A DNA stretch of 64,000 bases, taken from Candidatus Rifleibacterium amylolyticum (lineage in GTDB: Bacteria > Muiribacteriota > Ozemobacteria > Ozemobacterales > Ozemobacteraceae). Numbering within the stretch: the first letter of the stretch is position 1; the number at the start of each line of letters is the position of its first letter. The stretch is taken from the NCBI GenBank assembly GCA_009917695.1, contig JAACJG010000002.1, forward strand, positions 186,001 to 250,000. Reading direction: 5' to 3'. A program made the position numbers and the translations under genes. The notes under the pieces are model-generated. The model saw only the letters and a list, made by a program, of their open reading frames with translations, was not told the origin of the DNA and did not search any database. Of this stretch, positions 22,360-46,645 are shown in pieces.

Positions 22360-23919
22360 ATGGCAAGACAATATGACAATCAGCCCAAAAGCATGGGCTG
22401 CGGCACAATAATCGGTCTCATTCTGTTGTTTTTTCTGACCCTGGCTGACAGATTTGAGGATAAACGTGAAAAAAGCAAACAGGCAGCAAATGTTCAGTTG
22501 GCATCTGGAAGAATCGATGCGGCAACCAGCCAGATTGCGCGGCAAAGTGATGAGAACCTGATGCGATCCTATGGTCCCAAATCAGCTGACTATGAACTCG
22601 ACGCAAAAACTGGACGCACACTTTTGCACATGCTTTGCACGCTCAATCGACATCAAGTCCTCAAAAGCATGCTGGAAGGAGGCGCTTCGCCGAACCCTCG
22701 CGATTTTCGCAAAGAAACGCCCATGCATGTAGCTTTACAGAGAAAAAGCAGTGAATGTGTCGATCTGCTGTTAAAGCACGGAGCCGATCTGACCGCGGTT
22801 GACAATAAAAACTATTCGATTCTGCATGCTGCATCTGAATTCGGCTATTACGAGGTAGCCAAAGAAGCATTAAGAGCTGGCGCTGATATCGAAGCAGTAG
22901 CCTACGATTTTACTCCCCTGCATTGGGCCTGTTTCCGCGGCCAACTGCGTCTCGCCGTTCTGCTCTGTGAAAATGGGGCAAACACATCAACCTATGGCAA
23001 AGGCTGGACACCTGGTGATCTTGCCTTCGGCAAGCATCCTGAAATCGTAAGCTATCTGGCCAGTCGCAACGCACCCTTCAGTCAAGGTTTTCTGGTCGAA
23101 CACTATGACCTCAAAGATGGCTGGCCCTTTTTGAGCGAGTATGAAATTATCGCCATGTCTGGTGATCATCCGGCAATGCAGGCAGTGCGCAATGATTCGC
23201 CAGAACAACTTGAAGAGCTTAACGGTCAGATGATCGAGCTCGACATCAGCAACAAAGCCGACACGCCTCTTCTCATCGTTGCGATTGCCAATCGCAAAAA
23301 TTTGGCGGCAAAATATCTGGCCGGATACACAAAAAAGCTCAACGCCTGCGACACAAACGGCAAAAATGCTTTGATGTATTCTCTTGAAAAGGGCAGTAAA
23401 GACATCAGCCGCATCCTGCTAAAACGTGGCATAAAGCTCGATCATCTTGACACAGGCGGCAACAGTGCCCTGCATTACGCAATCGCGACTCTTGACAACG
23501 ATATCGTAGCTGAAATGATCGAAAAAGGTGCCGACATTTTTGCCGTAAACTATTTTGCCCGAGGCATGATGCACGTTGCTGCAGAAAATTCCAACGAAGT
23601 TATTTTTGCGACACTTATTGCGAATGGTTGTGACGTGAACCAGGAAGACATCAGAGGCAACACCGCACTGCACCTGGCTGCCCAGGCCAACAATCTGACC
23701 ATTCTAAGAGCTCTTTTAACCAACGGTGCCGATTTTGCGGTAAGAAACATGCAGGGAAAAGTTGCAGCCGATCTCGCCACCAGCCACGAAGCTTCTCAGC
23801 TGCTGCGCAACCGTTTTGAGATCGAGGGCTCCAACCCGGCGACCCGCGAACTCCCGGCCGAAGTACGCACTATGACTGTGCCAACCAGCGAGCTGGTCGA
23901 ACAGAGAAATGCCAGATAA
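22360..23919 (+). CDS. Membrane-anchored ankyrin-repeat protein heading the cyclase operon
   Basis: A 519-residue protein with GAGGTGAACGC before its ATG. One membrane span lies at about residues 15-30 (GTIIGLILLFFLTLADRF). From about residue 85 onward it is ankyrin repeats. Examples are TGRTLLHMLCTLNRHQVLKS, ETPMHVALQRKSSECVDLLL, YDFTPLHWACFRGQLRLAVL and GNTALHLAAQANNLTILRAL, roughly nine to ten copies interrupted by a less regular stretch around 235-280. Ankyrin repeats bind other proteins. Charge flanking the span is ambiguous, so I cannot say which side of the membrane the repeats face. The gene overlaps the first cyclase gene by 11 nt, so a physical link to the cyclases is plausible. Confidence 0.85.
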   Translation: MARQYDNQPKSMGCGTIIGLILLFFLTLADRFEDKREKSKQAANVQLASGRIDAATSQIARQSDENLMRSYGPKSADYELDAKTGRTLLHMLCTLNRHQVLKSMLEGGASPNPRDFRKETPMHVALQRKSSECVDLLLKHGADLTAVDNKNYSILHAASEFGYYEVAKEALRAGADIEAVAYDFTPLHWACFRGQLRLAVLLCENGANTSTYGKGWTPGDLAFGKHPEIVSYLASRNAPFSQGFLVEHYDLKDGWPFLSEYEIIAMSGDHPAMQAVRNDSPEQLEELNGQMIELDISNKADTPLLIVAIANRKNLAAKYLAGYTKKLNACDTNGKNALMYSLEKGSKDISRILLKRGIKLDHLDTGGNSALHYAIATLDNDIVAEMIEKGADIFAVNYFARGMMHVAAENSNEVIFATLIANGCDVNQEDIRGNTALHLAAQANNLTILRALLTNGADFAVRNMQGKVAADLATSHEASQLLRNRFEIEGSNPATRELPAEVRTMTVPTSELVEQRNAR

Positions 23920-26908
23920 CAGTTCTGACCGCCAGTTAAAAAAGCTGGCGCCCAAAATACCTGAGCTTGGCCATCTTCTGTTATTCTGGCTGCTGGCAAT
24001 CGGATTGCCGTTTCTGGCGATTCTCGTTCTGCTCAACAGCAGTGAATATAACAAGCTGGAACAATTACAGAGCTCGGTCAGCGACAAGATGTTCGACAAC
24101 ATGGGCGCTTTGTTGCGCCAATGCAGCTCTGAATCATATTTCAAGAATAGTGTCACACAAGCCGAAACAGCTGCCGGCCTGCCACCGCGTCATGCAAATC
24201 TTGTTATAGAGAAGCTTGCCGCCAATGAAATTCACAAAAATCTTGCCGGTGAGTTTTCTCGACTCGGCGGACTTAAGCTGATCACAATCATTTCAGGCAA
24301 TCAGGACTTATCAGATATTGAGATACATCATGACAGCATTGATTTCGCCGATTATCCCAAACCCGGTCAGTGGGCGGCCAGAACGCTGCTGAAAGCAATC
24401 ATCGCACGCATGCAGAACCAGCCGACAGATCAGATGCTTTCAGCAGTTGAACAGCGCATGCTGAGAAATTTCAACGATTCAATTTTCGGAAACTATTTTA
24501 ATCCGGTTGTCAGCAATGAAGACTTCAACAGCGGATTCATCGTCAGGAACAAAGGTACGAATCTTCACACCGTCCGCAGAATCGTCTTCAACAATAAAAA
24601 AGAGGTTGTATTTTCCTACCTCGCCATCTTTGCCGAAACCGCCAGAATATTCGATGAAGCATGGCTAAAAACCAGTCTTCAGGCGGCATCTTCTGAATTC
24701 GAACTCGATTTCGTGTTGAAAACGGCAATCGCATTTCCTTTTCTGGTGAAGAACAAGAATTCGAGCCTCAGTCTTTATGCTCCGATCAGCTATGGAAAGC
24801 TCAACGCCGGAGCGCATGCATCAGGGAATCTTATCGACCGGCTGACTGCGCAGGGAGAACTGACCAGAAGGCCGGCGCATTATCCTCACCTCAAGTTGAC
24901 TTCGAGACCGCTGCGACAGATGATCGGGAATCGCTATTTTTATGCAAGGATGCTGGTGTTTCTGTTCTTATGTCTTACTCTTCTGGCTTTGAAACACTTT
25001 CAACAGACGGGAATGCTGAATCTGCGAATAAGGCTGCGTTTATTCGCGGCGGTTTTTCTGGCAACAGTTCTGCCGGCAACCGCCTTCATGTTTTCGGTCT
25101 ATCGTCACAACCGGCAGCAGACAATATTGCGACAAACCGCCCTGATAAAAGAAATGAAAACCAGACTCAAGCTCTTAGAGCTCAACCTCAGATCTCAGGA
25201 CGAAATTATCAACCAGAAAGCTTACAACCTTGTCGATGAACTCAGCCAGAACATAGATAAACCAGATCAAGTCATCGAAAGCATACTCAGCCGACATGCA
25301 AAAGGCAGTTTCGTCGGAGCAATGCTCATCAAAAACAACGGTCTCAGTATCGAAATTGTCGACAGAAATGCAGCAACACTGCGCAATAATCCTGAGCATT
25401 TAAATTTTTCACGAGATATCTACTTTGCCTCGATGATTAAATTTTTTGATTTTCTCGGGCTCATTCTCGATCAGTTCTATGCCAGACTCGAAAGCACACC
25501 AAACGGCCGAAAGCTCAAGGCGCTGTCGACAATTTTCACGACAGAAGATGTCGAAAACTTCTGCAGCTACGAAGGTTCAGCTCAGACAACAAAAAAGGAC
25601 TCAGCTACTCTCCGCTTCATCAGCTTCAAAATCATTCCGCATGGCAACAGAAAAGGCGCCAATGCTGCCGTATTACTGCTCGTGCAGGACATTCGCGAAG
25701 TCGTCGAGCAAATTCTTGCCGAACAACTGAGCAGCTGGTCTTTTTACGAGCAGACATGCGATGAAGGCCGAATTCGCAACACACTGACAGGCACCCATGA
25801 TCTCGATGCCAGTTCGCTTGACCTGACAAGAATCTGGCCGCCTGGGCAGCAATTTGATGAAAACCAGAAGAGCCTGCTTGAAGAAATTACCAACGGAAAA
25901 GCTGAAGTCAGCCGAATAATAACCGGCGCAGACTCTCCTTATGTTGCCATGGTTGCCGCCAAAATCGGCGGGTATCCGCTTATTGCTGTTTCACAATGTT
26001 CAATGAATGGCCTGAACGCCGACAACAGTCAGACAGACCTGTTTCTGCTGGCAAGCTTTGCTTATCTCATGCTTATTCTGATAATGCTGGTCAGCCTGCT
26101 TGATGAACTCTTTGCTACTCCGATAAAGACGCTCCTGCAGGCAGTTAAGTTAACAGAAAACGGCTGCGAAGCAAACATAACCAATGATTTTACCAATGAA
26201 CTGGCGGCATTGACCGGTGAGTTCAATATAATGAACCGAAATCTCAAAGAGCGCGAACGACTGACCAGATTCATCTCGAAAGACGCTGCTCAGACGATTT
26301 CGCGTGAGAGCAGAGAAATGTCAGACATCCCGCCAGCTAGAGAGAATCGCAGCATATTGTTCATTCATATTCGTGGTTTCAGCGAACTAAGCGAAAAACT
26401 CAACCCGGAAAGTCTGATAGCCCTGCTCAATCAGTTCTTTCCTTTTGCCGAAGCTGCAATAAACGACAATGGCGGACAGATAGACAAATATATTGCCGAC
26501 GCAATAATGGCGGTTTTTGCCGACAGAGCCGACGGTCATCCGGCTGCATTGATGGCCTGTCAGGCGGCAGATAAGATTCGCAGCAATATTTCAACACTCA
26601 ATGCCATTCTGGCCGCACAAGATCTGCCAGGCGTGATCCTGGGAATCGGTATCGCCAGCGGCGAGGTCATAGCAGGCAAAATAGGCGCGCAAACCGGCAG
26701 GCGTGATTACACTGTCATCGGCGACAGAGTCAATCTGGCGGCCCGACTCGAAAGCATGTCGCATTTTTCCGAAAGAACTCGCATTCTTGTAGATCAGCAG
26801 ACAAAACAGTCGGCTGTCGCGACATTTTCTTTTAAAGACTACGGCGAATTGCCGGTAAAAGGAAAAACATCTCTGGTTCAGGTTTATGAGCTCATCGCCA
26901 ACAGATAA
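23909..26908 (+). CDS. Membrane class III nucleotide cyclase, C2-like half (pair 1, partner A)
   Basis: A 999-residue protein with four membrane spans (about 22-42, 348-365, 377-398, 712-736), two large extracytoplasmic regions, a HAMP-like linker (about 737-790) and a C-terminal class III cyclase domain (about 813-980). In that domain the first metal ligand is replaced: ILFIHIRGF has His820 where FxDI is expected. The rest is kept: Lys860 and Asp864 in DKYIADAIMAVF, and Thr935, Asn942 and Arg946 in YTVIGDRVNLAARLE. It therefore holds the ATP-base and transition-state residues but an incomplete metal site, like the C2 half of animal adenylyl cyclases. Its end overlaps the next gene by 23 nt. 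Confidence 0.9.
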   Translation: MPDNSSDRQLKKLAPKIPELGHLLLFWLLAIGLPFLAILVLLNSSEYNKLEQLQSSVSDKMFDNMGALLRQCSSESYFKNSVTQAETAAGLPPRHANLVIEKLAANEIHKNLAGEFSRLGGLKLITIISGNQDLSDIEIHHDSIDFADYPKPGQWAARTLLKAIIARMQNQPTDQMLSAVEQRMLRNFNDSIFGNYFNPVVSNEDFNSGFIVRNKGTNLHTVRRIVFNNKKEVVFSYLAIFAETARIFDEAWLKTSLQAASSEFELDFVLKTAIAFPFLVKNKNSSLSLYAPISYGKLNAGAHASGNLIDRLTAQGELTRRPAHYPHLKLTSRPLRQMIGNRYFYARMLVFLFLCLTLLALKHFQQTGMLNLRIRLRLFAAVFLATVLPATAFMFSVYRHNRQQTILRQTALIKEMKTRLKLLELNLRSQDEIINQKAYNLVDELSQNIDKPDQVIESILSRHAKGSFVGAMLIKNNGLSIEIVDRNAATLRNNPEHLNFSRDIYFASMIKFFDFLGLILDQFYARLESTPNGRKLKALSTIFTTEDVENFCSYEGSAQTTKKDSATLRFISFKIIPHGNRKGANAAVLLLVQDIREVVEQILAEQLSSWSFYEQTCDEGRIRNTLTGTHDLDASSLDLTRIWPPGQQFDENQKSLLEEITNGKAEVSRIITGADSPYVAMVAAKIGGYPLIAVSQCSMNGLNADNSQTDLFLLASFAYLMLILIMLVSLLDELFATPIKTLLQAVKLTENGCEANITNDFTNELAALTGEFNIMNRNLKERERLTRFISKDAAQTISRESREMSDIPPARENRSILFIHIRGFSELSEKLNPESLIALLNQFFPFAEAAINDNGGQIDKYIADAIMAVFADRADGHPAALMACQAADKIRSNISTLNAILAAQDLPGVILGIGIASGEVIAGKIGAQTGRRDYTVIGDRVNLAARLESMSHFSERTRILVDQQTKQSAVATFSFKDYGELPVKGKTSLVQVYELIANR

Positions 26909-29891
26909 CACTAAGGTAGAATCATCTCGACAGCTGAAAATCGGGCGCAGCATGTTTCTCAGGCTGGCCCCGGTGATGCTGTGGATATTGGCAATCTGCC
27001 TGCCAATGCTTATTGGCAGCCGCGTTTACTTTATCTCTCTCAGACAGAGACGAATTGATATTGCCGATCAGGCGAGGCAGCAACTGATGGCAAAGGCTCA
27101 GCAACTATCCTTCAGACTTCAGCCCAAAACCATTGCCAGAAATTTTTTCGAGATTGAAAACTATGACTGGCACTTTGCTAACTACCGCTATAACTCAGTA
27201 AAAAATGTATTCGAAAATCTGCCGGTGGTTAAATCACTGCCGGACTTCGATAAAAGCATTGACAGCGAGTTGGTTCGATTCAGCAGATACATCGAAGCTA
27301 ATTTCAAATTTGCGCCTGAGTTTTTGTTTGCGCTCGACGAAAATGTAGAAGATTGTGGCATACTTGTATCGAAACGCCTCGATCTTCTGGATGACGAACG
27401 GCTTGCACTGCGGGAAGAACTTTCCGAAATCTGCAAAAGGTTGAACTACACAGCAATCTTCGCAGATCAGACGCCGAGAGAATTGAGACACTACAAGGAT
27501 TTTCCAGTCTTCAATAAATTACTGGGTATCGCTCATCCTTTTAACACACGAGCCTGGCGAATCGATGGCAGATTTTCGGCAAAACTTAATCAGAACATTT
27601 ATCTGGTAACCATGTGCTGTCCGCTACTGAACAATCGGCAAAATCATGTGCTTATGGGGTTTACCATCGACAACATCAGGCAGGACATCATACTCGATCG
27701 ACTCTGCGACTCGCTCAGTGATGAGTTTATCAGCCTGAAGTCCGGCCTGTCAGCTGAACACAATTTTCCGCTTTTTATCGGACAGGGTGATAAAGTCGAA
27801 ATGTTGACCAGATTACCAGTTGCTTTTGAACAGCTTTTCAGCGCAAAAATGAACAAAAAGACAGATAAAAAGACGGTGATCAAACTTACTGCCAACACCA
27901 AAGCTTCTGACCGACAATTCGAACTGGCTATAGACAAAGTCAAGATTGTGCTCTTTATTCTGGCCGGCATCAGCCTGCTGATCGCGGTCAGCCTCTCGAT
28001 GGGAAGAATTGAAGTCAAAGCGGGCCTGACCGGAATAATAGCAACGAGTTTTGTCGCCTGCATGGCCTTTCCACTGTCTGCAATATTCTGGCAGGGTTTG
28101 TTGCAATACCATTCGAATAGAGAAAGCGACACCCAGCAAGTCATGCATAAGATCTCGCGTAATATCAGAGAACTCGATCAGAGCTTTCTGCTGCAAAGTT
28201 ATCGTCGCATGCTGCTGCTCAAATTCATCGCTGCAGGTTTTGAGCGACTGCCCATGCCTGCCTGGGGGCGCATGGCCAGGCTTATGTTTTCTGACCAGGC
28301 AGAAGACCGCTTTTCAAATCATTTTAGAACTTATTATCTCTACGATGCCCTCGATCGCGAATTTTACCGTGGTCAGGTTAAAACCGAAAATCAGGTCATA
28401 AGCGAGATGTCGCGCCTTTTCGTAGGTGTTTCACGCAAGCTGATGATGCAGATTGGAGCGATGTCGGGCCTGAGCGAAAATGACCGCAACCGGATAGGGC
28501 AGATCGCCGATTTTGCATCAGGTCTGATGGAGCAGCTTATGCGACCAAAATTGCTGAATCAGATTTATAAAACCCAGGGCGAGCTTTTTATGAGTGACTT
28601 TATGGCCAGGCGTTCTTTACTCTGCAGTCATTTTCTCAAAGCCGCCGGAAAAATCGTAGGATTCATGATTTTTGTGACTGAGAACTATCAGTTGATGGAA
28701 CTCATTGGCGAGATGCAGCAGGAAGGCCTTTTCCCTTCACGGCTGGCGGTTGATGATTACGATGTTGAACTGGTTTTCTACCCGATCGATGATTATGCTG
28801 AGCGTGGACTCAAAAGTCGCATAGCTTACAGCGACAAAAACAGCGTATCTCAGAATGACGGTTTTAAGGAAATTGCAAACTCTCTGTATGCTGGCGCTGA
28901 CTTCAATCAGATAAACAATCTGCACCTGAAAGACCCGCATCTGATAGTTACCGACAAAATCTTCGAAAACAATGTATTTGTATTTGCACTGGCAAGGCCG
29001 GTAAAAAGCCGTCATCAAGTTCCCTGGCCCCTGATTGCTTTAACGCTGGTTGCAGTCACAAGTTGTCTGACTCTGGCGGCTGGCGTAGCTAGAATGTTAC
29101 TGATGCAGATTCCCCCGTTTCTCTTCGCCATGCGACAGATAGAAAACGACAGATACGACTGGCAACTTGCTCTGCCCGGCAGCGATGAGTTTGCTGAGCT
29201 CGCTGTATCGATCAATTCGATGCGGGTCAGTCTGCTCGAGCGAAAGAAAATGATGCAGCTGGTTTCGGCCAACGCGATCGAAGCGGCTCAATCAGACCTT
29301 AAACAGCAAAGCCGGGCAAAACGGCGCGAAGCGGCGATTCTTTTTTGCGATATCAGAAGCTTTACCACAATAAGCGAAAGCAGGTCTGCCGAAGAAGTTG
29401 TCGAAATGCTCAACCATTACTTTTCGCGCATGTGCCCGATCATTGAGGCTCAGGGCGGATTTGTCGACAAACTCATCGGCGATGCCATTCAGGCCGTATT
29501 TTACGGCGATGCAGCGACAGCCGTTCTGACTGCCGCAAAATGCGCAGTGCAGATGCGGGTAAGCCTCGGCGATTTTAATCAACAACGAGTAAACCAGGGG
29601 CTGTTTACCATAGATAACGGCATTGGCATAGCAGCCGGAACAGTGATAACCGGGCTGGTCGGCTCGCAGACCGGCAAACTCGACGCCGCACTGCTCGGCA
29701 ACGTATTGCAAAAAGCTCAGAAACTTGAAGCACAAAGCAAACATGCTGTTGACAGCAAAATCCTGCTCGATCACGAAAGCTGGCAAAAGGTCAGAGACAA
29801 AATTATCGTCAGAACGTTCAGCGATCCTTCTTCTACCGAATCGCCAGGTAAATGTCTGTATGAACTGGTAAAAATCAAAGAAACGACATGA
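26886..29891 (+). CDS. Membrane class III nucleotide cyclase, C1-like half (pair 1, partner B)
   Basis: A 1001-residue protein with the same plan as its neighbour: spans at about 27-46, 354-373, 376-402 and 714-738, HAMP-like linker, and cyclase domain about 814-985. Both metal aspartates are present (Asp822 in ILFCDIRSFTT, Asp866 in DKLIGDAIQAVF), as is Lys862. The opposite half of the site is lost. Where YTVIGDxVNLAARLE is expected it reads AALLGNVLQKAQKLE, so Thr is Ala935, Asn is Gln942 and Arg is Lys946. On its own it should not be able to stabilise the transition state. It complements the preceding gene product exactly. An ATG 66 nt downstream is an alternative start. Confidence 0.9.
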   Translation: MSSSPTDNTKVESSRQLKIGRSMFLRLAPVMLWILAICLPMLIGSRVYFISLRQRRIDIADQARQQLMAKAQQLSFRLQPKTIARNFFEIENYDWHFANYRYNSVKNVFENLPVVKSLPDFDKSIDSELVRFSRYIEANFKFAPEFLFALDENVEDCGILVSKRLDLLDDERLALREELSEICKRLNYTAIFADQTPRELRHYKDFPVFNKLLGIAHPFNTRAWRIDGRFSAKLNQNIYLVTMCCPLLNNRQNHVLMGFTIDNIRQDIILDRLCDSLSDEFISLKSGLSAEHNFPLFIGQGDKVEMLTRLPVAFEQLFSAKMNKKTDKKTVIKLTANTKASDRQFELAIDKVKIVLFILAGISLLIAVSLSMGRIEVKAGLTGIIATSFVACMAFPLSAIFWQGLLQYHSNRESDTQQVMHKISRNIRELDQSFLLQSYRRMLLLKFIAAGFERLPMPAWGRMARLMFSDQAEDRFSNHFRTYYLYDALDREFYRGQVKTENQVISEMSRLFVGVSRKLMMQIGAMSGLSENDRNRIGQIADFASGLMEQLMRPKLLNQIYKTQGELFMSDFMARRSLLCSHFLKAAGKIVGFMIFVTENYQLMELIGEMQQEGLFPSRLAVDDYDVELVFYPIDDYAERGLKSRIAYSDKNSVSQNDGFKEIANSLYAGADFNQINNLHLKDPHLIVTDKIFENNVFVFALARPVKSRHQVPWPLIALTLVAVTSCLTLAAGVARMLLMQIPPFLFAMRQIENDRYDWQLALPGSDEFAELAVSINSMRVSLLERKKMMQLVSANAIEAAQSDLKQQSRAKRREAAILFCDIRSFTTISESRSAEEVVEMLNHYFSRMCPIIEAQGGFVDKLIGDAIQAVFYGDAATAVLTAAKCAVQMRVSLGDFNQQRVNQGLFTIDNGIGIAAGTVITGLVGSQTGKLDAALLGNVLQKAQKLEAQSKHAVDSKILLDHESWQKVRDKIIVRTFSDPSSTESPGKCLYELVKIKETT

Positions 29892-29904
29892 CAAAAAAAG
29901 CTTT

Positions 29905-32835
29905 ATGAAAACCATCAGACCAGAAAGACTTTCGAATACCAGACTTTTTGTGTTCTGGCTGATCGTTTTTGTGCTGCCACTGATAACTGCCAGAATACTG
30001 GTTAATCTGCATGCCAACCAGCTGACGCAAACCGAAGAGAGCGATCTCAGAACAGCCCTGCGCCAGGAAATGAGTCTCTATCTAACCGACCTCGAGCTCA
30101 GCAGCCAGATTGAAAAACAGATAAAAAAGGTTGAACGACTGCTCGCAAGTGAGCTTGCCGCGAGCGCCAAACCTTATGATGCAAAAAATATCTGCGGCCT
30201 CTCACAGCGTTTTTTCGAAGAAACCGGCATATTCATGCCGGCGCTGATCGCGGCTTATATTCCAGAAAGCAGAGAAACCGAGATATTGCGCATAAATACC
30301 GATTCTCTCAATCCCGGGCGCAAGTCGCTCGAGATAATTCTGACTTATCTCAACGATCTGACCAATAACTCAAACGCTGAAAACCAGGCCAGGCTCTATC
30401 AGCAGATCTGCCGGTCTGCCTTTGGCGAGTTGCTGCAACCGGCCAGGCAACCAGGTCTTCTGGTCAGTGGTTTTTTGAGCAAAGGCCGTGGCGACCGTGC
30501 CTTTGTTTATCACAACAGTATCGAAATCCGCAGAAATGGGAAAAAATTCATTTTGTTTGCAGTATTTGCTGAAGCTGAAACTGGACTCAAGGAACTGCTG
30601 AATCTGGCCAGGCAACAGAACAGCAGCCCTGCAATCACCAGAAGCTTCGCGATGATGAGCACCGCGGCTGACCGCGACTTTTTTTTCGACCGCCACAACA
30701 ACCTGAGTTACGCTGTACCGATACCTCCGGCAGTCTTACGAACTGGCTCGCATGCTGGCAAAGACTGGTATTCCAACATCTTCGCAACGAACAAGGCATT
30801 AGAGAAACCTGCCCGACTGCCTTTTGCCGTGGTAACTCACCAGCCAGAAACCTCCAGACAAAAGAATGTTTCCGGGAATGATCTCGCCAATCTTTTACTG
30901 CTGGCATTCTTTTTCATCGGCACGGCACTCGTTCATCAGATCGCAACTCTCCGCTTCGCCCGGGCACCGATCAACCGCAAGTTTGCCCTTTGTATCATGC
31001 TTTCGACAGTTCTGCCATTTTCAGTATTGATCGTATCTGCATACCGTTACACGAGGCATTTCAGCCTGAGCATGATTCAAAACCGCCTGCACCAGATGGG
31101 GAACGAGCTATACCTCATCGAAGCAAACATTCACAGCCACTCCCAGCGCAAAAGATTCAACATCTACACATTTCTCAAGCGTTTGCAGAACAGCTCACAC
31201 CTTTCATCAACAAGGCTCAGACAGATGCTCGACGATGAATTCGGCCGACTCTACATCGGCTATATGTTTTTCCGCAACGATGCGACTCTGATCGAGCGAT
31301 TGCCCGATACGAGAACAGCCAGCAGTGACGACCGCAGCAAATTACTTCTGATGCGGGACCTTACCCTGGCGCAGTTTTACGATGTTTTTGTCCACTCCTC
31401 AGCACTTGCCAGAAATTTTGCCGAAAACAGCGCGATGATTCCAGACTTCAAGCGCTGGCGTGCATTTTCAGTGCATTACAATCCAATTGACCGGAACTCA
31501 TTCTCGATACAGGATGGAGAGAATTTTCCGGTGAAAATCTCAGAGCGGCAATACATAGAGTATTCCACTCACAACCTGTTCAGTAATCCTTCGGCAAAAG
31601 CGGTGTGGGCAGGTCTTATTCTGCTGGTCGATGCACACGCAACCGCCGAAAACTATCTGAACCAGCTGCCAGGGCATACTTTTACCCGAACTCATGGCGA
31701 CTCGCTGACCCATACCGCCATATTTCGCCTGAATACGCAGGAGCAGATCGACCGGCAGATCGCCTGGCCCCGCAACGCCCTTTCCGACAACCTGATGCTG
31801 CAAACCGCCATGAGTCTGGCTTCAGGAAAAACAGAATCGGCATGGTACAGCTTCGACAAAACCGGTGCCGTAAACCTGTTCTGCGCCAGGGCCGTTTCTG
31901 ACACGCCTTTTGTTGTTGTTTCACGCGGCGAACTGACGGTTACCAACGTAATCGAAGCCTTTCTACCGGTGCTTCTGCTGCTGGTAATAATTTATCTGCT
32001 GGCACTGACCAAGCTGCTGAGCCTGATTCTTGCCGAAAGCTTCATCAAGCCGGTCAACCTCATGCTTGACGGCCTGACTGCGCTGGATAAAGGCTTTTAT
32101 CCGGTTGTCGCCTGTGACTCTGCCAATGAGCTGGGCAGCCTGGTCGGCGATTTCAACGACATGGTCGAAGGCATGCGGCAACGGCGAATTCTCGAACGCT
32201 TTATATCAGACGAAGTTTCGCAGACAGTTGCCGAGAGTGCTTCAGACCCCGACAAGCTTGCCGGCAACCTGGTGCATCGCGCAATCATGCTCATTCATAT
32301 CCATAATTTTGATGAGCTGTGCGAAAAACTCGAGCCGGAATCAGTTATTGCACTGCTCAATATTTACTTCAGCAAACTTGAACCTGCTGTTACCTCGCAG
32401 GGTGGGCAGATCGACAAATACATCGGCGATGCCATAATGGTAAGCTTTGCCGGCGAGCGCTGCGGTGGGAAGCCTGAACTGGCCGCCTGTATGACCTCTT
32501 TGCAATGCCGCGGCAAAATGCCTGAAATCATGGCCAGATTAGCAGAAAGAGGGCTGCCGGCGATAGTTATCGGCACAGGAATCGCCGCCGGCACGGTAAT
32601 TCTCGGCAAAATCGGTGCGCGCAACGGGCGCAAGGATTTTACTCTGATCGGCGACGCAGTGAATCTGGCCGCAAGGCTTGAGAGCGCATCGCGATTCGAT
32701 GGCAGACCGCATATTCTGATTTCTGAAAGTGTCAGAACAGCTGCGGCGAACATTCGCTGCAAGCCGCATGCCCGGCTCAAGGTCAAAGGCAAAGAAAATG
32801 CAGTTGAAGTCTTTGAACTGGAGGAAATCGCCTGA
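29905..32835 (+). CDS. Membrane class III nucleotide cyclase, C2-like half (pair 2, partner A)
   Basis: A 976-residue paralogue of the protein at 23909. Spans lie at about 14-33, 328-349, 360-383 and 683-710, followed by a HAMP-like linker (LGSLVGDFNDMVEGMRQRR) and the cyclase domain from about 792. The first metal ligand is again His (His798 in IMLIHIHNF). Kept residues are Lys838 and Asp842 (DKYIGDAIMVSF) and Thr913, Asn920 and Arg924 (FTLIGDAVNLAARLE). The same Asp-to-His change in both paralogues argues for a kept feature, not random decay. The 13-nt gap to the gene before it contrasts with the 1-nt overlap to its partner downstream. Confidence 0.9.
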   Translation: MKTIRPERLSNTRLFVFWLIVFVLPLITARILVNLHANQLTQTEESDLRTALRQEMSLYLTDLELSSQIEKQIKKVERLLASELAASAKPYDAKNICGLSQRFFEETGIFMPALIAAYIPESRETEILRINTDSLNPGRKSLEIILTYLNDLTNNSNAENQARLYQQICRSAFGELLQPARQPGLLVSGFLSKGRGDRAFVYHNSIEIRRNGKKFILFAVFAEAETGLKELLNLARQQNSSPAITRSFAMMSTAADRDFFFDRHNNLSYAVPIPPAVLRTGSHAGKDWYSNIFATNKALEKPARLPFAVVTHQPETSRQKNVSGNDLANLLLLAFFFIGTALVHQIATLRFARAPINRKFALCIMLSTVLPFSVLIVSAYRYTRHFSLSMIQNRLHQMGNELYLIEANIHSHSQRKRFNIYTFLKRLQNSSHLSSTRLRQMLDDEFGRLYIGYMFFRNDATLIERLPDTRTASSDDRSKLLLMRDLTLAQFYDVFVHSSALARNFAENSAMIPDFKRWRAFSVHYNPIDRNSFSIQDGENFPVKISERQYIEYSTHNLFSNPSAKAVWAGLILLVDAHATAENYLNQLPGHTFTRTHGDSLTHTAIFRLNTQEQIDRQIAWPRNALSDNLMLQTAMSLASGKTESAWYSFDKTGAVNLFCARAVSDTPFVVVSRGELTVTNVIEAFLPVLLLLVIIYLLALTKLLSLILAESFIKPVNLMLDGLTALDKGFYPVVACDSANELGSLVGDFNDMVEGMRQRRILERFISDEVSQTVAESASDPDKLAGNLVHRAIMLIHIHNFDELCEKLEPESVIALLNIYFSKLEPAVTSQGGQIDKYIGDAIMVSFAGERCGGKPELAACMTSLQCRGKMPEIMARLAERGLPAIVIGTGIAAGTVILGKIGARNGRKDFTLIGDAVNLAARLESASRFDGRPHILISESVRTAAANIRCKPHARLKVKGKENAVEVFELEEIA

Positions 32836-35816
32836 TGCAGCGCATTTACATCAGTTCAAAACCAGGCCGGCTGACAAGATACGCACCGCTGCTGCTATGG
32901 TTCATGGCAGTGCTTTTACCACTTTTTGCCGCCAGGTTGATTTTCAGTTCTGCCATAAAAATGGAAAACGATCTCTATCGCTCACGCATGCAGCAGAAGC
33001 TCAGAGTAGAACTGCAGAAATATGATACTGCACTTCACCCCGGGAATTTCTTGAGCGATGCAATTGCGAGAAGCGCAAGCGAACAAATCATGCGGAACTG
33101 GATAAACGGCCGGGAATATAGCGCCGATTACCGCACTCATCCTGTTCTCAGCCATTTGCCGGCGATGTTTGCCTCAGACTCTTCGACGATCGAAAATTTT
33201 GTTGAACTCAGCCAGCGCCTGACAGGAATGAGCCCTCAGATTGTTTTCGTCATCTCTGAACAGGAAAAAGACTGCCAGTGGAGCCTGAAATCGCCGTTCG
33301 ATGTACCAGAAGATGATGCCGCTGTAAAACGAGAGCTTGCCGGAGTCTGGCAGATAATGGAAATGCGCAACAGCTTTGGCAAACGGCCAGTGCCGGCAGA
33401 ATACGATGTTCTCGAAAATTTCCCTATATTTGACAGGGTATTGGGTCTTCTACAGCCGTTAAAGACTTCTTATGGCTCGATTATCGAACGCTACTCTTCC
33501 CAGGCCCGAGATGTAGTCTATCTGACCTGCCTGCCAGTTCCTGCCGGCATTACCGGAAAGGCTAACCGCTATATCATGGCGGGATTCTGCCGGTCGGCCT
33601 TTTCTACTCAATTCATGCTCGAAAAAACCACGAAAAGCTTTACAAAATCAGGTTTCAGCCACCGGGCAGCATTGTCTTCAGAAAAGATACTGCCTGCCTT
33701 CAAAGAAACTGATGAGCTGATGGTGCTTACCGGTCAGGTTCCAATGCTTTTTGCCAGGCTCTTTGCAGAAGTTAAGCTGCCACCGGGCCATCAACCGGCA
33801 ATCAGCATCAGCTGCCCCAGACTTTCGCCAGATGCAAAGGCAAAAAACAATCTGGTTGAACTGCTGCTGAAACTGGTGGCAGTATTATCTTTCATGCTAC
33901 CGGTGGCGGCGATGCTTGGGCGCATTGGCACCGCGGCCAAATTGTACAAACTGGTGCGCGCCTGTTTTTTGATCGGTATTCTGCTGCCCCTGGCAGCTTC
34001 TGTCTGGCTCGGCATCTGCCACATCAATTCAAAAAAACAGCTGGAAACCGAGCAGCTGCTTGATTTTATGCAGAATCAGCTGACTCTGACGGAACAGAAA
34101 ATACTTTTGCAGCAATCGCGCAGTGTTCTGTTTCAGAATATTTTCGCAGAAAGCGCCGGCAACCTGACTGCCGAAAGATTGCGCCAGCTGAATCAGATTA
34201 CCAGATACGTCAGTACCATGCCAAAAAACAAGAACCTGATAGATGTCTGCCCACGCATGAACAGACGGTTTTACACATACTTTTTCGTTCATCCTGAAAT
34301 CGATGGCGATATAATCGGCCTGGCATCAGGCCAGGGGCAGGCGGCCGGAACTCTCAATCCTGTTTTTTCAAGTCCCGCCCGTGAAGTTCTGTTTCAGCTT
34401 GGAGCCTACAAAAGGATGTCTGGCGACAAGGCTCGCAACCTGCTGCAGAAATCGCAACTGACCATGGGTCTAATCGATGTCGCCATCGACCTCAAATTGT
34501 TATCAAGAACATTCGCCGAAGAACGCTCGCCTGTTTTCAACAGCATGACGACGGGCAGAGAATGCATCACCAGCATTTTCTGGAAAAACCGCAAGCACGA
34601 AAAATCCGGGATCATTTTCCTGCAGTCGAATCGCGAAGGCTGGAAAAATGAAATTCTCGAACTGATCGAAGAGGGACTTTTGCAGACGGTTTTTCACCAG
34701 AATGGCTACGAAATCACGCTGCATGTTTACTTTCCAAATCCTCATCGACAGAGAGTTCTCGACAATGACGCGCACGAAGTTGTCGCCCGCTTTGCACCTG
34801 ATAAAAAAAGCCTGTGGGAGAGTGCTCAGGCGATGTTTCTAGTCTCAAAAACTTCACGCATCAACAACCTTGATTCAGATAAGCCGCACCTGCTGACCGG
34901 GCTGGAGGTAATCAAAGGCGATGCCTATCTTATGGCGCACGCAGTGCCAGTTCCCGGCATCCATCTGATCAGCGATGCAGCTATTTATCTGCTTCTCCTG
35001 CTGTTAGTCGTTATCAGCAGCTATTACCTCGCCGGCGGTGTTGCCTGGGTGCTGTTACGCTCGATTCCGGCTTTTCAGGCATCGATGCAGGAAATGGCAG
35101 AGCAGAATTTTCGCTGGCAGATAGAATTGAACAGCGGCGACGAGTTTGACAGGCTCGCGCACACTTTCAACCATCTTGGCCGCCAGCTTTACGAGAAACA
35201 GCAGATCAGCCAGCTGGTGTCACGCAACGTTCTCGACGTCATAAACTCAGGTGACGATCTGATGCTGCGTCCTGGCGGCAGCCGGGTAACCGCTTCGATA
35301 CTCTTTGCCGATATCCGCGGCTTCACGACTCTCACCGAAAAACACCAGCCCCAACAGATCGTATCGATGCTCAACGATTACTTTTCGCTGATGGCCGAGC
35401 AGATCGAGAGCCGCGGTGGCATCATCGACAAGTTGATTGGCGATGCTATTCAGGCGGTTTTTTATCATCATGAATGCGAAAATGGGGCTGAAGCCGCGGT
35501 AAAAGCCGGGATGGCCATGCGAGAAGCGTTGCCGGCATTCAATAAGCTTCGACAGCAACAGGGACTGTTCACGATCGACAATGGCGTTGGCATCTGCACC
35601 GGCAGCGTTATCTGCGGGCGCGTGGGTTCAGAACAGGGCAAACTCGATGCAACGCTGGTCGGCAGTCTGGTCGGTCAGGCAGCTCAGCTCGAAAGCATGA
35701 GCAAAGCCGGAGCCAGCAGTAAAGTGTTCATCGACCAGGCTACCGCAAAAATGCTTGGCAAATACCTGAACTGCCATCCCGTAGCCGCACAGAGCAACGT
35801 TTTTGAAGTGGCTTAG
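32835..35816 (+). CDS. Membrane class III nucleotide cyclase, C1-like half (pair 2, partner B)
   Basis: A 993-residue paralogue of the protein at 26886. Its ATG overlaps the previous stop (TGATG) and has GGAGG upstream, so translation is coupled to its partner. Spans lie at about 17-38, 338-362, 372-396 and 710-742, then a HAMP-like linker and the cyclase domain from about 818. The metal aspartates are present (Asp826 in ILFADIRGFTTL, Asp870 in DKLIGDAIQAVF), with Lys866 and Thr940. The transition-state pair is lost: Asn is Gly947 and Arg is Gln951 in ATLVGSLVGQAAQLE. It shares GLFTIDNG and the GKLDA segment with the other B partner, showing that the pairs arose by duplication. Confidence 0.9.
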   Translation: MQRIYISSKPGRLTRYAPLLLWFMAVLLPLFAARLIFSSAIKMENDLYRSRMQQKLRVELQKYDTALHPGNFLSDAIARSASEQIMRNWINGREYSADYRTHPVLSHLPAMFASDSSTIENFVELSQRLTGMSPQIVFVISEQEKDCQWSLKSPFDVPEDDAAVKRELAGVWQIMEMRNSFGKRPVPAEYDVLENFPIFDRVLGLLQPLKTSYGSIIERYSSQARDVVYLTCLPVPAGITGKANRYIMAGFCRSAFSTQFMLEKTTKSFTKSGFSHRAALSSEKILPAFKETDELMVLTGQVPMLFARLFAEVKLPPGHQPAISISCPRLSPDAKAKNNLVELLLKLVAVLSFMLPVAAMLGRIGTAAKLYKLVRACFLIGILLPLAASVWLGICHINSKKQLETEQLLDFMQNQLTLTEQKILLQQSRSVLFQNIFAESAGNLTAERLRQLNQITRYVSTMPKNKNLIDVCPRMNRRFYTYFFVHPEIDGDIIGLASGQGQAAGTLNPVFSSPAREVLFQLGAYKRMSGDKARNLLQKSQLTMGLIDVAIDLKLLSRTFAEERSPVFNSMTTGRECITSIFWKNRKHEKSGIIFLQSNREGWKNEILELIEEGLLQTVFHQNGYEITLHVYFPNPHRQRVLDNDAHEVVARFAPDKKSLWESAQAMFLVSKTSRINNLDSDKPHLLTGLEVIKGDAYLMAHAVPVPGIHLISDAAIYLLLLLLVVISSYYLAGGVAWVLLRSIPAFQASMQEMAEQNFRWQIELNSGDEFDRLAHTFNHLGRQLYEKQQISQLVSRNVLDVINSGDDLMLRPGGSRVTASILFADIRGFTTLTEKHQPQQIVSMLNDYFSLMAEQIESRGGIIDKLIGDAIQAVFYHHECENGAEAAVKAGMAMREALPAFNKLRQQQGLFTIDNGVGICTGSVICGRVGSEQGKLDATLVGSLVGQAAQLESMSKAGASSKVFIDQATAKMLGKYLNCHPVAAQSNVFEVA

Positions 35817-37910
35817 TTATTTGCTCTGGACTCGGAAGACGCCGTCCCAGTCGGGGCCGGGCGGGTTTTCGTGCAGTTCGCGACAGCGGCTCAGATACAT
35901 TTCGGCAGCCGGGTCTTCCTGCAAAATAGCGAGAAGCGCCTGAAATTTTTCATAAGACTCGCGCCAGCTGCGATTGAGATAACTTTGCAGGGCTTCTTCT
36001 GACAAAGATGCGATTTTGAGAAGATCTTCAGCCCCGGCATTTTCTTTTGAACCCAGCAGCTGATAGATTTTTACGCTGCCATGCCGGCCTTTAACCGCGA
36101 CGATATCGAGCGGCCTGAAAATAAAATCATTACCTGCAGCCATTGCCGTAGACTGACTGACGATTATTTCTGTTTCGTAAAGCTTGTTGAGCCCCTCAAG
36201 GCGACTGGCCAGATTGACGTTATCACCTATGGCCGTGTAATTGAAGCGGTCAGAAGACCCGAAGTTGCCGACAAGCGAAACTCCGGTGTTTATACCTATT
36301 CTGGTAGCAAAAACTTCCTTTCCTGCCGTTCGCCACTTTTCGTTGAGCTCGCCGATGGCTCTGATAATCTCAACTGCCGCCTGACAAGACTGCCTTGCCT
36401 GTTCAGAACTGCTCATCGAAGCGCCCCAGAAGGCCATTACCGAGTCGCCGATATACTTGTCGATCGTTCCGCCATGGCGATGGATCAGGGCGGCGATGCA
36501 GTCGAAATACTGCGAAAGCTGCTCCATCAACTGCGATGGCGATACCTTTTCAGCTATCGAAGAGAAATTGGAAATGTCGGTGAACATCAGGGTGATCTCT
36601 TCGGCATGCGCTTCAAGGCGAGCTTCATCATGCCGATTGACCAGCCCCAGAACTATTTCTGAGGGCACATATTTCTTAAAGGCACCAAGTGCTTTTTTCA
36701 TCGAATTCATGGCTTCGCTCATCGCATGAATCTCTGAAATTGGCGATTGAATATTAATTTCACCCTCGAAATCGAGTTTCTGAATCTTTTCAGCTTCGTG
36801 CGTAATGCGCTTGATCGGATCGGTAAGTTCACGCGCCAGCGCCGAAGTCAGAAAGCCTCCAATAATCAGCAGCCAGAAAGAAAACAGCAGTGTCGTCTCA
36901 TGAATTCTCGCTATTGGCCCGATAAAATCCTCTTCCGGAACGATTATGCCAAGAATCCAGTCGCGGCCAAAATTATCAGGAAACGGCCTGAACGAAGCAA
37001 TATAGTTATCGCCGCCGTGTTCATAAGTAAAACGCAGCTTCTTATCGTCGATATATTTTTCCAGCGCCGACTTTATCCAGCCAGTCTTGATGCTCTGCTG
37101 CAAAGGTGAGCGCGGCGCTCTTACGTTGTCGACATCGAGACCCGATTTTTCCGGATAAGCCAGAACATTGCCTTCGCTGTCGGCAATGAATGCCAGCCCC
37201 GAGTCGCCAATTTTGAGACTTTTCAGGAACTCGGCCAGCTCGCCCAGTCGAAAATCGATACCAACTGCGCCGGCAAAGGTTCCATCAGGGCCATAAACCG
37301 GATGAGCGCAGGTAATGCCCGGCACCTGATCGGTAAAAAGCCGATATTCACGACTCCAGACAGCACGTCCTTCGGCTTTGGCCAGCACATACCAGGGGCG
37401 CTCGCGTGGGTCGAAATTGAGAATCGAACTGCTGCGCGTCGCTATTATCTGCCAGTCATGGTCGCGGTCAATTTCGATCATGCCGGCAGGGCTATCGGTT
37501 CGCGAAATTATGCGGGTCGAATAAGTGCCGTCGGTCATGCGACGCGCCATCACGAAATTGCCACCCTCATCTCCGAGGTAAACCGCCGAAAACTGGGGGT
37601 AAGCATCTAAAGCTTCAAGACTGATAGTCTCGATCATTTCGGGAGAATTGGCGAACGAATCACCACGCTCGATCATGCGCCGCAACAGGTGACCGGTCTT
37701 GCGGGCCGGGTCGAGATGATTGCTGGTCTGCCGGATAATCGTCTCTGAGATCTGGTATAGCAGCTCATCAGAAGACTGCAACATGATCTCAGAATTGCTG
37801 CGGTAACCATAAATGACAATACCGGCGACAATAAGCGAAAACAGGGCAAGAAACGAGAAAAAAACAACCACCTGCAGGCGATAGGTTCGGTAGAGAGCTC
37901 GTTTCATCAT
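35817..37910 (-). CDS. Cache-HAMP-adenylate cyclase with all catalytic residues
   Basis: A 697-residue protein from the ATG at 37908-37910; a GTG 36 nt upstream is also possible. The first span is about 12-37, followed by a periplasmic dCache-type sensor (YLGDEGGNFVMARRM, then WSREYRLFTDQVPGITCAHP and GAVGIDFRLGELAEFL). The second span (about 338-358), HAMP, and a class III cyclase domain come next. All six key residues are present: Asp445 (LMFTDISNF), Lys485 and Asp489 (DKYIGDSVMAFW), Thr559, Asn566 and Arg570 (YTAIGDNVNLASRLE). It should work as a homodimer making cAMP. A short TPR-like tail ends in NPPGPDWDGVFRV, shared with the cyclase at 57264. It converges on the four-cyclase operon with no gap. 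Confidence 0.92.
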   Translation of the reverse strand: MMKRALYRTYRLQVVVFFSFLALFSLIVAGIVIYGYRSNSEIMLQSSDELLYQISETIIRQTSNHLDPARKTGHLLRRMIERGDSFANSPEMIETISLEALDAYPQFSAVYLGDEGGNFVMARRMTDGTYSTRIISRTDSPAGMIEIDRDHDWQIIATRSSSILNFDPRERPWYVLAKAEGRAVWSREYRLFTDQVPGITCAHPVYGPDGTFAGAVGIDFRLGELAEFLKSLKIGDSGLAFIADSEGNVLAYPEKSGLDVDNVRAPRSPLQQSIKTGWIKSALEKYIDDKKLRFTYEHGGDNYIASFRPFPDNFGRDWILGIIVPEEDFIGPIARIHETTLLFSFWLLIIGGFLTSALARELTDPIKRITHEAEKIQKLDFEGEINIQSPISEIHAMSEAMNSMKKALGAFKKYVPSEIVLGLVNRHDEARLEAHAEEITLMFTDISNFSSIAEKVSPSQLMEQLSQYFDCIAALIHRHGGTIDKYIGDSVMAFWGASMSSSEQARQSCQAAVEIIRAIGELNEKWRTAGKEVFATRIGINTGVSLVGNFGSSDRFNYTAIGDNVNLASRLEGLNKLYETEIIVSQSTAMAAGNDFIFRPLDIVAVKGRHGSVKIYQLLGSKENAGAEDLLKIASLSEEALQSYLNRSWRESYEKFQALLAILQEDPAAEMYLSRCRELHENPPGPDWDGVFRVQSK

Positions 37911-38120
37911 TGCATCCGTCTGAAATGTTTTTTGAGATTCTAACACTTTTTTCCGGCAATAGCAGCAATATCAATTCTCCTGTTCTGAGCCGTATAGATA
38001 AGTTGTTTATAATTTTACGGAAAAGTTATATGATTGAGCCTGTGCCGGAACATTTGCGTTTTGCTGGCATTCGCTGCAAAATTCTGTTAAATACACTGCA
38101 AAAAAACGCGGAGGTAAGGA

Positions 38121-42576: not shown

Positions 42577-43611
42577 ATGTACAGATTTTTTAAAAAGTTT
42601 TTTTCGACGACGATGATTTTGTCCTGCCTGCAATTGATCATTGTCAGCGCGACTCTGGCGGATGATTCATTTTCACTCAGGCCAGTCAGACCACCAGCAT
42701 TCAAACGCCTGTCACGGCTGCTGGAAAAGGCACAAAGCTCACCACTGCTTAATACTGTCGATACGCTGATGAGACTCTCAGGCATCTATGAAATTGCTGC
42801 TGCATGCAGTAATCCGCGAATCGTCATACTTCCCCCGGCTGTCAGGGCAGATCGAGCATCATCTGACAATACCGGATCGATAAGAATACTCAGCGCAAAT
42901 CTGCTGCTGTTCCCGGCCCCGGTGGTTTTAGATCAGGAACAGCGAATCGCTGAGTTTGCAAAATGCGTGCGCAGCCTCAACCCAGATATAATACTCACCC
43001 AGGAAGTCTGGGATAACAAAAGTCTTGGCCTGTTGATTGCAGCTCTACCCGACTATTATTCAATCTTCTCACCTGGCATAGGCTATAATCATTCAGGTTT
43101 GCTGACATTGTGCAGATTCGCCCCAGAAACATGCATAATGCGGCGTTTTCCGACGTCTTTGCAACATTCACTTGAAGAATTCATGGCACAAAAAAGCATT
43201 CTTCAGACATCGCTCAGATATGATGGACAGATTCTGCATTTGTTCAACACTCATCTGTATTCAGCGGCACCGCACAAGAGATACCGTCCCAACCTCAGAC
43301 AATTCAAGTTGTTGGCAGACATTGTTGATAATCTATCAGGTCGAACCATTGTCGGCGGTGACATGAACCTGCTGCCAGCTGATCTCAAAATTCTCTTGCC
43401 GGAAAGTCTGCGGCTCGAAGGCTGCAATCTGCCAACAGCCGGCTACCCAAATCTCAAGAGAAAACTCGATTACATACTGGCGGGCAACAGATCAGGCCAG
43501 ACCGTCATATCAGGCAGGCGAATAGATCCGCCGCGACGTTTTTCCGACCATAATCCGGTATTTGCCAAAATCAAATTTCTTGACAAAAAAGACATCACAC
43601 GACCAGATTGA
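42577..43611 (+). CDS. Exported endonuclease/exonuclease/phosphatase-family protein
   Basis: A 344-residue protein. Residues 1-28 look like a signal peptide (MILSCLQLIIVSATLADD). The EEP catalytic set is complete and in order: RILSANLL (Asn), ILTQEVW (metal Glu), LFNTHLYS (catalytic His), VGGDMNLLP (Asp and Asn) and FSDHNPVFA (Asp-His pair). Members cut DNA, phosphoinositides or sphingomyelin. With a secretion signal, an extracytoplasmic nuclease or lipid phosphodiesterase is plausible. A TATAAT box at 42525-42530 may belong to its promoter; the -35 is unclear. Its 3' end overlaps the convergent cyclase gene by 17 nt. Confidence 0.8.
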   Translation: MYRFFKKFFSTTMILSCLQLIIVSATLADDSFSLRPVRPPAFKRLSRLLEKAQSSPLLNTVDTLMRLSGIYEIAAACSNPRIVILPPAVRADRASSDNTGSIRILSANLLLFPAPVVLDQEQRIAEFAKCVRSLNPDIILTQEVWDNKSLGLLIAALPDYYSIFSPGIGYNHSGLLTLCRFAPETCIMRRFPTSLQHSLEEFMAQKSILQTSLRYDGQILHLFNTHLYSAAPHKRYRPNLRQFKLLADIVDNLSGRTIVGGDMNLLPADLKILLPESLRLEGCNLPTAGYPNLKRKLDYILAGNRSGQTVISGRRIDPPRRFSDHNPVFAKIKFLDKKDITRPD

Positions 43612-46600: not shown

Positions 46601-46645
46601 TGTAATGAAGATCATTGTAAAAAACAGACTTCTATGAAGGCTCAT
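43595..46645 (-). CDS. Membrane class III nucleotide cyclase, C2-like half (pair 3)
   Basis: A 1016-residue protein, second in its operon; the start overlaps the upstream stop by 4 nt (ATGA) and has GGAGG. Spans lie at about 7-24, 318-340, 352-368 and 736-756, then HAMP (SFTGPLEHLLWGLNCIEAGN) and the cyclase domain from about 840. Asp848 is present (ILFADFDGF), but the second metal ligand is Glu892 (DKVVGEKLLIVF in place of GD). Lys888, Thr955, Asn962 and Arg966 are intact (NTVIGDPVNVAARM). The Glu could still bind metal weakly, so activity alone is not excluded. It supplies exactly what its partner at 46642 lacks. Confidence 0.9.
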   Translation of the reverse strand: MSLHRSLFFTMIFITILALAFRLESRLVTDERMATNQMVQAIQYNNRVRQEANIYSTVQNTFSRFRDLVSNNHMALFRYGWAPDFVEKSLPPYSLAIAIADGKGNLLNSADLRGETNPEFLARFLAIDDLKTRNYKEDVFFNPKYEELCKECDDLLHEYIGDPVDKIVFMQMRAGRMATFRSAERCVGVYWDKLTVANGQLVYFFCRIDLHKMSALHVFKTIAETESVGNFAAAFFDGRSGEFVAGNSLQIAKKKSETDYVNQVCRDFIGKAGNNRHMRTEMFRHGSLAVVIGREVTGTPFFPVVIARLQGLSDARSTQIYRLLAFAGVCLVFLVFVQTVVFGRGLKLSVGKVLILASLFAIFMPFMMGRSIFQLILREASASERLKIERNLHNTLTGIDSGIRLYNANLFQSFLKSFAHPDTIRSLKEAREQQALYENSPAERANIDLKAHDQDVLNIAERAFAPFISSYKTSGDPGRRANAILVMGPNGFLRYYDRFKREVVGHSAESRNDSMFMLLNMYRKTIEKFFARDEFVPGLLESKKTASAEAIEKAMYDEIKKHIITSFGNERFYEIFSRLEGLSSMRTSVGTTLFTVFPLRIGGLIEYFCGVGWDEYAIGESYLKNAFAEIINVNNDSRKLVSLLDIFDPAAFIAADPVLVQAFSGFRAESFFSQDTESPRLSTLIRSASRNRRITRYVGTGDEKAIYQALPGRYLGLYTVGGRQDTSYLDRIEFWRSVIFMSGLIVFLIFAVLAAINISRSFTGPLEHLLWGLNCIEAGNYEVKLKDSREDEFGSISRAFNRMVKGLRERNALGSFVSESVRRLASNPELFEKARQGSEAKFTILFADFDGFSEFATTADEKAVQRKLEFSLERFFRYADEYGGEVDKVVGEKLLIVFSHERHGKKNAAVAAIKLAKRILHDFKADPDIKPVFGINSGRVISGIIGTPEVRIDNTVIGDPVNVAARMCSLANSESMPIIISGAVRDCLGSSYPVKPVSIERIRGKKQEVEVFNLVV

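Follow-up and report, generated by a model that had tools for sequence, protein, structure and literature searches.

Tandem class III cyclases of Candidatus Rifleibacterium amylolyticum as predicted one-site heterodimers, with a conserved histidine in the dead pocket

Two tandem pairs of class III cyclase genes in Candidatus Rifleibacterium amylolyticum, here called A1/B1 and A2/B2, very probably encode obligate heterodimeric membrane adenylyl cyclases in which each pair would form one live and one dead site. The split of catalytic residues between neighbouring genes, the conservation of this split in 92 pairs and the natural fusions of the two halves lead to this reading. The genes lie in a tight run within the window, which is the whole stretch of 64,000 nucleotides that was analysed, and the residue at the first metal-binding position alternates along it, with His in A1, Asp in B1, His in A2 and Asp in B2 (Table 1). 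Two types of domain are distinguished throughout: the M type keeps both metal-binding aspartates (D1 and D2) and has lost Asn/Arg and the triphosphate-binding Lys, and the NR type keeps the base-binding Lys and Thr, Asn/Arg and the triphosphate-binding Lys.

A class III site draws its metal-binding aspartates from one chain and its base-selecting residues, Asn, Arg and Lys from the other (PMC2576301, PMC4174876, PMC3591389). Since each site uses two chains, the metal ligands of B and the remaining residues of A would make up one complete site, and the His/Asp of A with the remainder of B would make up a dead one. At the proposed live interface, the two metal-binding aspartates would come from B, and A would contribute Lys and Thr for base selection, Asn to orient the ribose, Arg for the transition state and Lys to bind the triphosphate. 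At the mirror-image interface, His820 and Asp864 of A1 would face a B1 that lacks Asn, Arg and the KGK motif, and cyclisation would not be expected; the His would line this dead pocket and probably has a structural or ligand-binding role that keeps it in this clade. The homodimeric enzyme Rv1625c shows that residues divided in this way can support catalysis, since its D300A and R376A mutants regain activity when co-expressed (PMC4821796). From the distribution of residues, we infer that the partners associate physically, that they share a single active site, that the substrate is ATP and that the second pocket may have a regulatory role. Lys and Thr at the base-selecting positions go with ATP and with class IIIb-like enzymes.

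Table 1. Features of the window and of fused cyclase genes at other loci (positions of the window, or of the locus named; D1, K, D2, T, N and R are the catalytic positions in order)
Feature	Position	Strand	Residues and remarks
Ankyrin-repeat protein	22360..23919	+	N-terminal hydrophobic segment; end overlaps A1 start
A1, NR-type subunit	23909..26908	+	999 aa; ORF, Pfam PF00211 (E 7.5e-18), hydropathy, residues
A1 cyclase domain	26345..26893	+	His820, Lys860, Asp864, Thr935, Asn942, Arg946, KGK984-986
A1 His820 codon	26366..26368	+	CAT; first metal position
B1, M-type partner subunit	26886..29891	+	1001 aa; start overlaps A1 end by 23 bp
B1 cyclase domain	29328..29867	+	Asp822, Lys862, Asp866 kept; Thr/Asn/Arg replaced by A/Q/K; without KGK
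A2, NR-type subunit	29905..32835	+	976 aa; paralogue of A1
A2 cyclase domain	32275..32820	+	His798, Lys838, Asp842, Thr913, Asn920, Arg924, KGK961-963
A2 His798 codon	32296..32298	+	CAT; first metal position
B2, M-type partner subunit	32835..35816	+	993 aa; start overlaps A2 stop by 1 bp
HAMP of B2	35040-35189	+	
B2 cyclase domain	35289..35810	+	Asp826, Lys866, Asp870 and Thr kept; Asn/Arg replaced by G/Q; without KGK
Complete cyclase	35817..37946	-	709 aa; D K D T N R; convergent with B2
Third window pair, NR subunit	43595..46645	-	1016 aa; Asp848 kept, Glu892 at D2; K, T, N, R kept
Third window pair, M subunit	46642..49533	-	963 aa; D Q D L I T at D1 K D2 T N R
Fused M-NR ORF	L200 2770-9546		
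Fused M-NR ORF	L201 1415-9031		
Fused M-NR ORF	L202 1746-8978		
Fused M-NR ORF	L108 7886-13861		
Fused M-NR ORFs	L011, L012, L020		

All six pair members of the window match the cyclase family PF00211, at 33.7-68.5 bits (cut-off 21.9). Each subunit is predicted to have four transmembrane helices, placed by hydropathy at residues 23-41, 343-361, 374-392 and 713-731 in A1, with two regions of about 300 aa between the helices in addition to the class III cyclase domain, and many subunits carry a HAMP domain. AlphaFold models of the single A1 and B1 chains are usable in the cyclase domains (pLDDT mostly 80-90) and poor in the sensor regions, where the mean pLDDT of 57.5 and 63.9 is too low to name a fold. 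Both cyclase domains adopt the class III fold when compared with CyaB (3r5g): the A1 model reaches a TM-score (target) of 0.89 with an rmsd of 2.2 over 196 columns, and the B1 model a Z of 22.9 with an rmsd of 3.9 over 187 residues. Fold searches with the A1 and B1 models returned cyclase domains and are uninformative about the sensor regions; the Pfam search of the pair subunits gave only cyclase and HAMP domains at reportable level, with no sensor family and no H-NOX. The best PDB matches of the M and NR halves are bacterial cyclases.

The surroundings of the pairs are partly shared with relatives. An ankyrin-repeat gene also lies upstream of the His pair in four of them (L159, L172, L182/L183 and L208), and its product may be a partner or regulator of the pair. 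The complete cyclase that converges with B2 is syntenic with the His pair in L172, L182 and L208.

The genome as a whole (G000) has 61 class III cyclase domains, roughly double the 'up to 30' isozymes that the literature gives for a single strain (PMC9552081). Thirty-six of them form 18 pairs; in 13 the two genes are adjacent, in the other five a single ORF of about 2000 aa contains both domains, and each of the 18 joins an M to an NR domain. The full residue set is present in 23 of the 25 unpaired domains. This contrast between paired and unpaired domains gives a Fisher p of 8e-15, a value that ignores relatedness, and random matching of 18 M and 18 NR domains would produce only mixed pairs with a probability of 3e-5, which relatedness turns into a guide only. 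For a homodimer, A1-type chains are short of D1, and B1-type chains of Asn/Arg and KGK. Two unpaired degenerate cyclase domains, neither half complete, also occur in the genome (L025 38-2170 and L038 1355-2440). Cyclic-nucleotide-binding domains are matched 19 times in this genome, which makes a cyclic nucleotide output plausible.

The same arrangement recurs in relatives, which were found by an alignment-based scan of genome contigs that yielded five genomes of the same genus and 16 of the same family; a contig scan with a single protein as query detected no relatives. Regions were taken from 19 of these 21 genomes, and 173 further domains were read. Domains were paired greedily by simple adjacency, which at L159 joined B1 to A2 rather than to A1 and left the M+NR count unaffected. 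This gave 94 pairs from this genome and its relatives together. Both sides could be scored in 92; the remaining two have an NR half that is truncated at a contig end or interrupted by unread bases. All 92 scorable pairs are M+NR (18 in this genome and 74 in relatives), with no M-M, NR-NR, full-full or doubly broken pair among them, and the pairs are mostly overlapping genes. Unpaired halves also occur in the draft contigs of the relatives, and several of them lie at the edge of a contig or close to a broken frame. The split extends to another family of the phylum, where further pairs obey it and some NR domains have the D1 loop deleted. In the Spirochaetaceae genome Cf509_bin4, small cyclases have Phe or Ser in place of D1 (L081 1061-5095, L235 2394-5761 and L241 1395-3311), and two of them adjoin partners with degenerate Asn/Arg; the same evolution may have taken place separately there.

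The residues that defined the sorting were D1, D2, Asn and Arg, so that the finding at these positions is the absence of pairs other than M+NR. M domains keep D1 and D2 in 94 of 94 cases each; NR domains keep Lys, Thr, Asn and Arg in 92 of 92 each and have lost D1 in 88 of 92, and in the four that retain it D2 is changed to Glu. These four cases, which include the NR subunit of the third window pair, are mutual orthologues. Lys, Thr and the KGK lysine are independent of the sorting, and they too separate the halves: Lys is present in 92/92 NR against 57/94 M domains, Thr in 92/92 against 27/94, and the KGK lysine in 91/92 against 8/94. Across 175 columns, NR exceeds M most strongly at Asn, Arg and Thr, with Lys860 also listed; in the opposite direction, Glu829, Arg822 and Thr825 near the metal loop lead and D1 ranks sixth.

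Fusions and trees bear on the origin of the split. Nine ORFs of 1986-2538 aa, five in this genome and four in relatives, join an M to an NR domain in one chain, with the M half first in all nine. In a tree of the 61 domains of the genome, a single branch separates M from the rest (support 89/87), and the best tree requires two changes for NR, with a single origin still compatible; in a tree of 233 domains built by a faster method, M, NR and unpaired domains are each set apart by one branch (supports 92, 79 and 90). Fusion needs two changes on the larger tree, which implies one or two fusion events. M and NR arose perhaps once each, so that the pairs are not independent events. The trees of the M and NR partners mirror each other, with a distance correlation of 0.79 that none of 500 permutations equalled, and the tree of the B partners parallels that of the His clade; joint inheritance of neighbouring genes alone could explain this. 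Two complete cyclases, L021 and L022, share part of their N-terminal region with both halves and adjoin M and NR in the 61-domain tree, a kinship as expected if the ancestor was homodimeric. The pairs would have originated when a homodimeric cyclase was duplicated and the copies underwent complementary loss, independently of the animal adenylyl cyclases.

The feature that first drew attention to the locus is the His in A1 and A2. A preliminary description had placed His820 of A1 and His798 of A2 at the position of the Asp in the FxDI motif, and alignment with all 61 class III domains of the genome, together with the solved CyaB, confirms it: the aligned CyaB residue is the Asp of FSDIRGF, and the tandem neighbours 26886-29891 and 32835-35816 have Asp (GAT) at the equivalent position. 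His is present in 17 of 17 NR orthologues of A1 and A2, from nine genomes and three genera, in cyclase domains with a mean identity of 45%. The residue at this position is shared in 52/52 comparisons within the His clade against 125/483 elsewhere in the half-family at similar identity (about 0.4), and its conservation in the clade is more than chance. Other NR clades have A, S, G, Q, R, K, T, E or V at the same position, with D in four cases. The variety of residues that had been named as evidence against conservation is thus absent among orthologues and present in the wider half-family, which makes the His clade-specific and not essential to the architecture.

The preliminary description had further held that the His predates the duplication and was then kept. 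The clade of A1 and A2 is monophyletic (support 96), and A1-type and A2-type genes each recur with His in other genomes, which places the His before the duplication and bears out that claim. Its view that the change is not random decay also stands: the genes of the His pairs have open reading frames, with no sign of the nonsense or frameshift mutations that decay would leave, and dN/dS is about 0.10-0.18, many dS values between more distant pairs being saturated. We therefore reject simple decay. A comparison of rates between 'dead' and 'live' proteins brought little contrast, as between G001 and G002 dN/dS is 0.15 for A1 and 0.18 for B1, with purifying selection in both. The suggestion of a dead pocket that may be regulatory, in the manner of animal adenylyl cyclases, is a good fit, but A1 and A2 are not two independent dead enzymes: each forms half of a pair, whose operon partner carries the live portion of the site and itself lacks the remainder.

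The role of the His is the weakest part of the heterodimer account. Within that account, as a sub-hypothesis, His820 and Asp864 of A1 with Lys862 of B1 might bind a nucleotide or metal without turnover and so set the activity of the live site, a reading that we put forward tentatively and hold at somewhat short of an even prospect. In the His clade D2 is Asp in 17/17 domains, and the partners keep Lys in 15/15, have always lost Arg and have mostly lost Asn. D2 and the partner's Lys are both kept in 13 of 13 His pairs against 23 of 77 other pairs without D1, and only in the His clade are the two invariant at the dead site, which hints at a non-catalytic ligand pocket. In human soluble guanylyl cyclase (sGC) the corresponding pseudosymmetric cavity has been proposed as the regulatory site, and in adenylyl cyclase it is the forskolin site. 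Against this, one clade is one evolutionary event, the retention of D2 and Lys may be structural, and other NR clades manage without the set of His, Asp and Lys.

The His may instead be a neutral relic, reached by one base change after the Asp had become dispensable and held since by inertia or packing; this is possible, although we incline against it. The position varies freely in other NR clades, and about one sixth of the columns of the clade's domain (32/193) are invariant in any case. A relic would, on the other hand, have had to survive as His in 17 of 17 domains that average 45% identity, across three genera and despite duplications, and equally diverged clades do not hold their residue at this position.

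It is very unlikely that the His replaces Asp as a metal ligand and that A1 and A2 are active homodimers with an altered metal preference. Only a single residue is changed in these chains, which keep Asp864/842, Lys, Thr, Asn, Arg and KGK; the always-adjacent partner, however, has intact aspartates and lacks exactly what A keeps, and sister clades carry G, A, S or K there, which are poor metal ligands. We reject the proposal on partner complementarity and on these sister-clade residues. That M-M and NR-NR homodimers serve as non-catalytic receptors or dominant-negative regulators of complete homodimeric cyclases, of which the genome has 23, would suit the fact that neither subunit alone builds a canonical site, but is highly improbable because it leaves unexplained the exact complementary split in every pair, the invariant catalytic residues of each half and the M-NR fusions.

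Bacterial class III adenylyl cyclases have been described in a review as homodimers, a fundamental difference from eukaryotes (PMC4821796), and elsewhere as homodimeric with no fused dimeric class III cyclase known in bacteria (PMC9552081). If the heterodimer reading is true, these sequences contradict both sources on homodimers and the second on fused dimers, as a bacterial group would have dozens of complementary pairs and no fewer than nine fusions, alongside complete cyclases encoded by single genes in the same genome. A search of open-licence literature found no work on cyclases of Riflebacteria, and none pairing 'heterodimeric adenylate cyclase' with 'bacterial'. The full proposal, which reads from sequence an independent rise of animal-style (pseudo)heterodimers and their expansion to at least 18 pairs in one genome, some fused in a C1-C2-like way, with the dead site of the His clade turned into an allosteric pocket with conserved His, Asp and Lys, is possible but doubtful as a whole. 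The pairs by themselves would represent a second occurrence in evolution of the step by which a homodimer with two sites becomes a heterodimer with one, including graded states in which D1 is lost, D2 is changed or the loop is deleted, and they make the purpose of a dead site directly testable by comparison.

Among known systems, the mammalian adenylyl cyclases AC1-9 are similar in partition, with the metal aspartates on one of the C1 and C2 domains and the base-selecting Lys with Asn/Arg/Lys on the other (PMC4174876). C1/C2 and the proposed pairs would have in common one live and one dead site, read here from sequence, and the fused relatives share the C1-C2 order with the metal half first. 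The mammalian halves lie in one chain, whereas the window genes are separate and a single chain is found in the nine fused ORFs; each mammalian half has six transmembrane helices, whereas four are predicted here per module of about 1000 aa, with two large regions and HAMP in several. The mammalian enzymes (class IIIa) have Asp at the second adenine-selecting position, where Thr is found here in 92/92 NR domains. The nearest solved sequence relatives of the window genes are bacterial, namely CyaB, Cya2/CyaC and OaPAC-type domains.

The bacterial enzymes Rv1625c, CyaB and CyaC have the same fold and catalytic residues as the window pairs but are homodimers with the full set in each chain and two equal sites. 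The alpha and beta subunits of sGC show the same partition (PMC3591389): two separate genes form one shared active site, to which alpha gives the metal aspartates and beta Arg and Lys, beside a pseudosymmetric cavity. The sGC sensors probably differ, the Pfam search of the window genes having given no H-NOX, and the base-selecting residues here are of the adenine type, Lys/Thr. A further obligate class III heterodimer is found in the rhodopsin cyclases of chytrid fungi (RGC1/RGC2, NeoR), but there neither half has lost any residue known to be required for cyclisation (PMC8815786).
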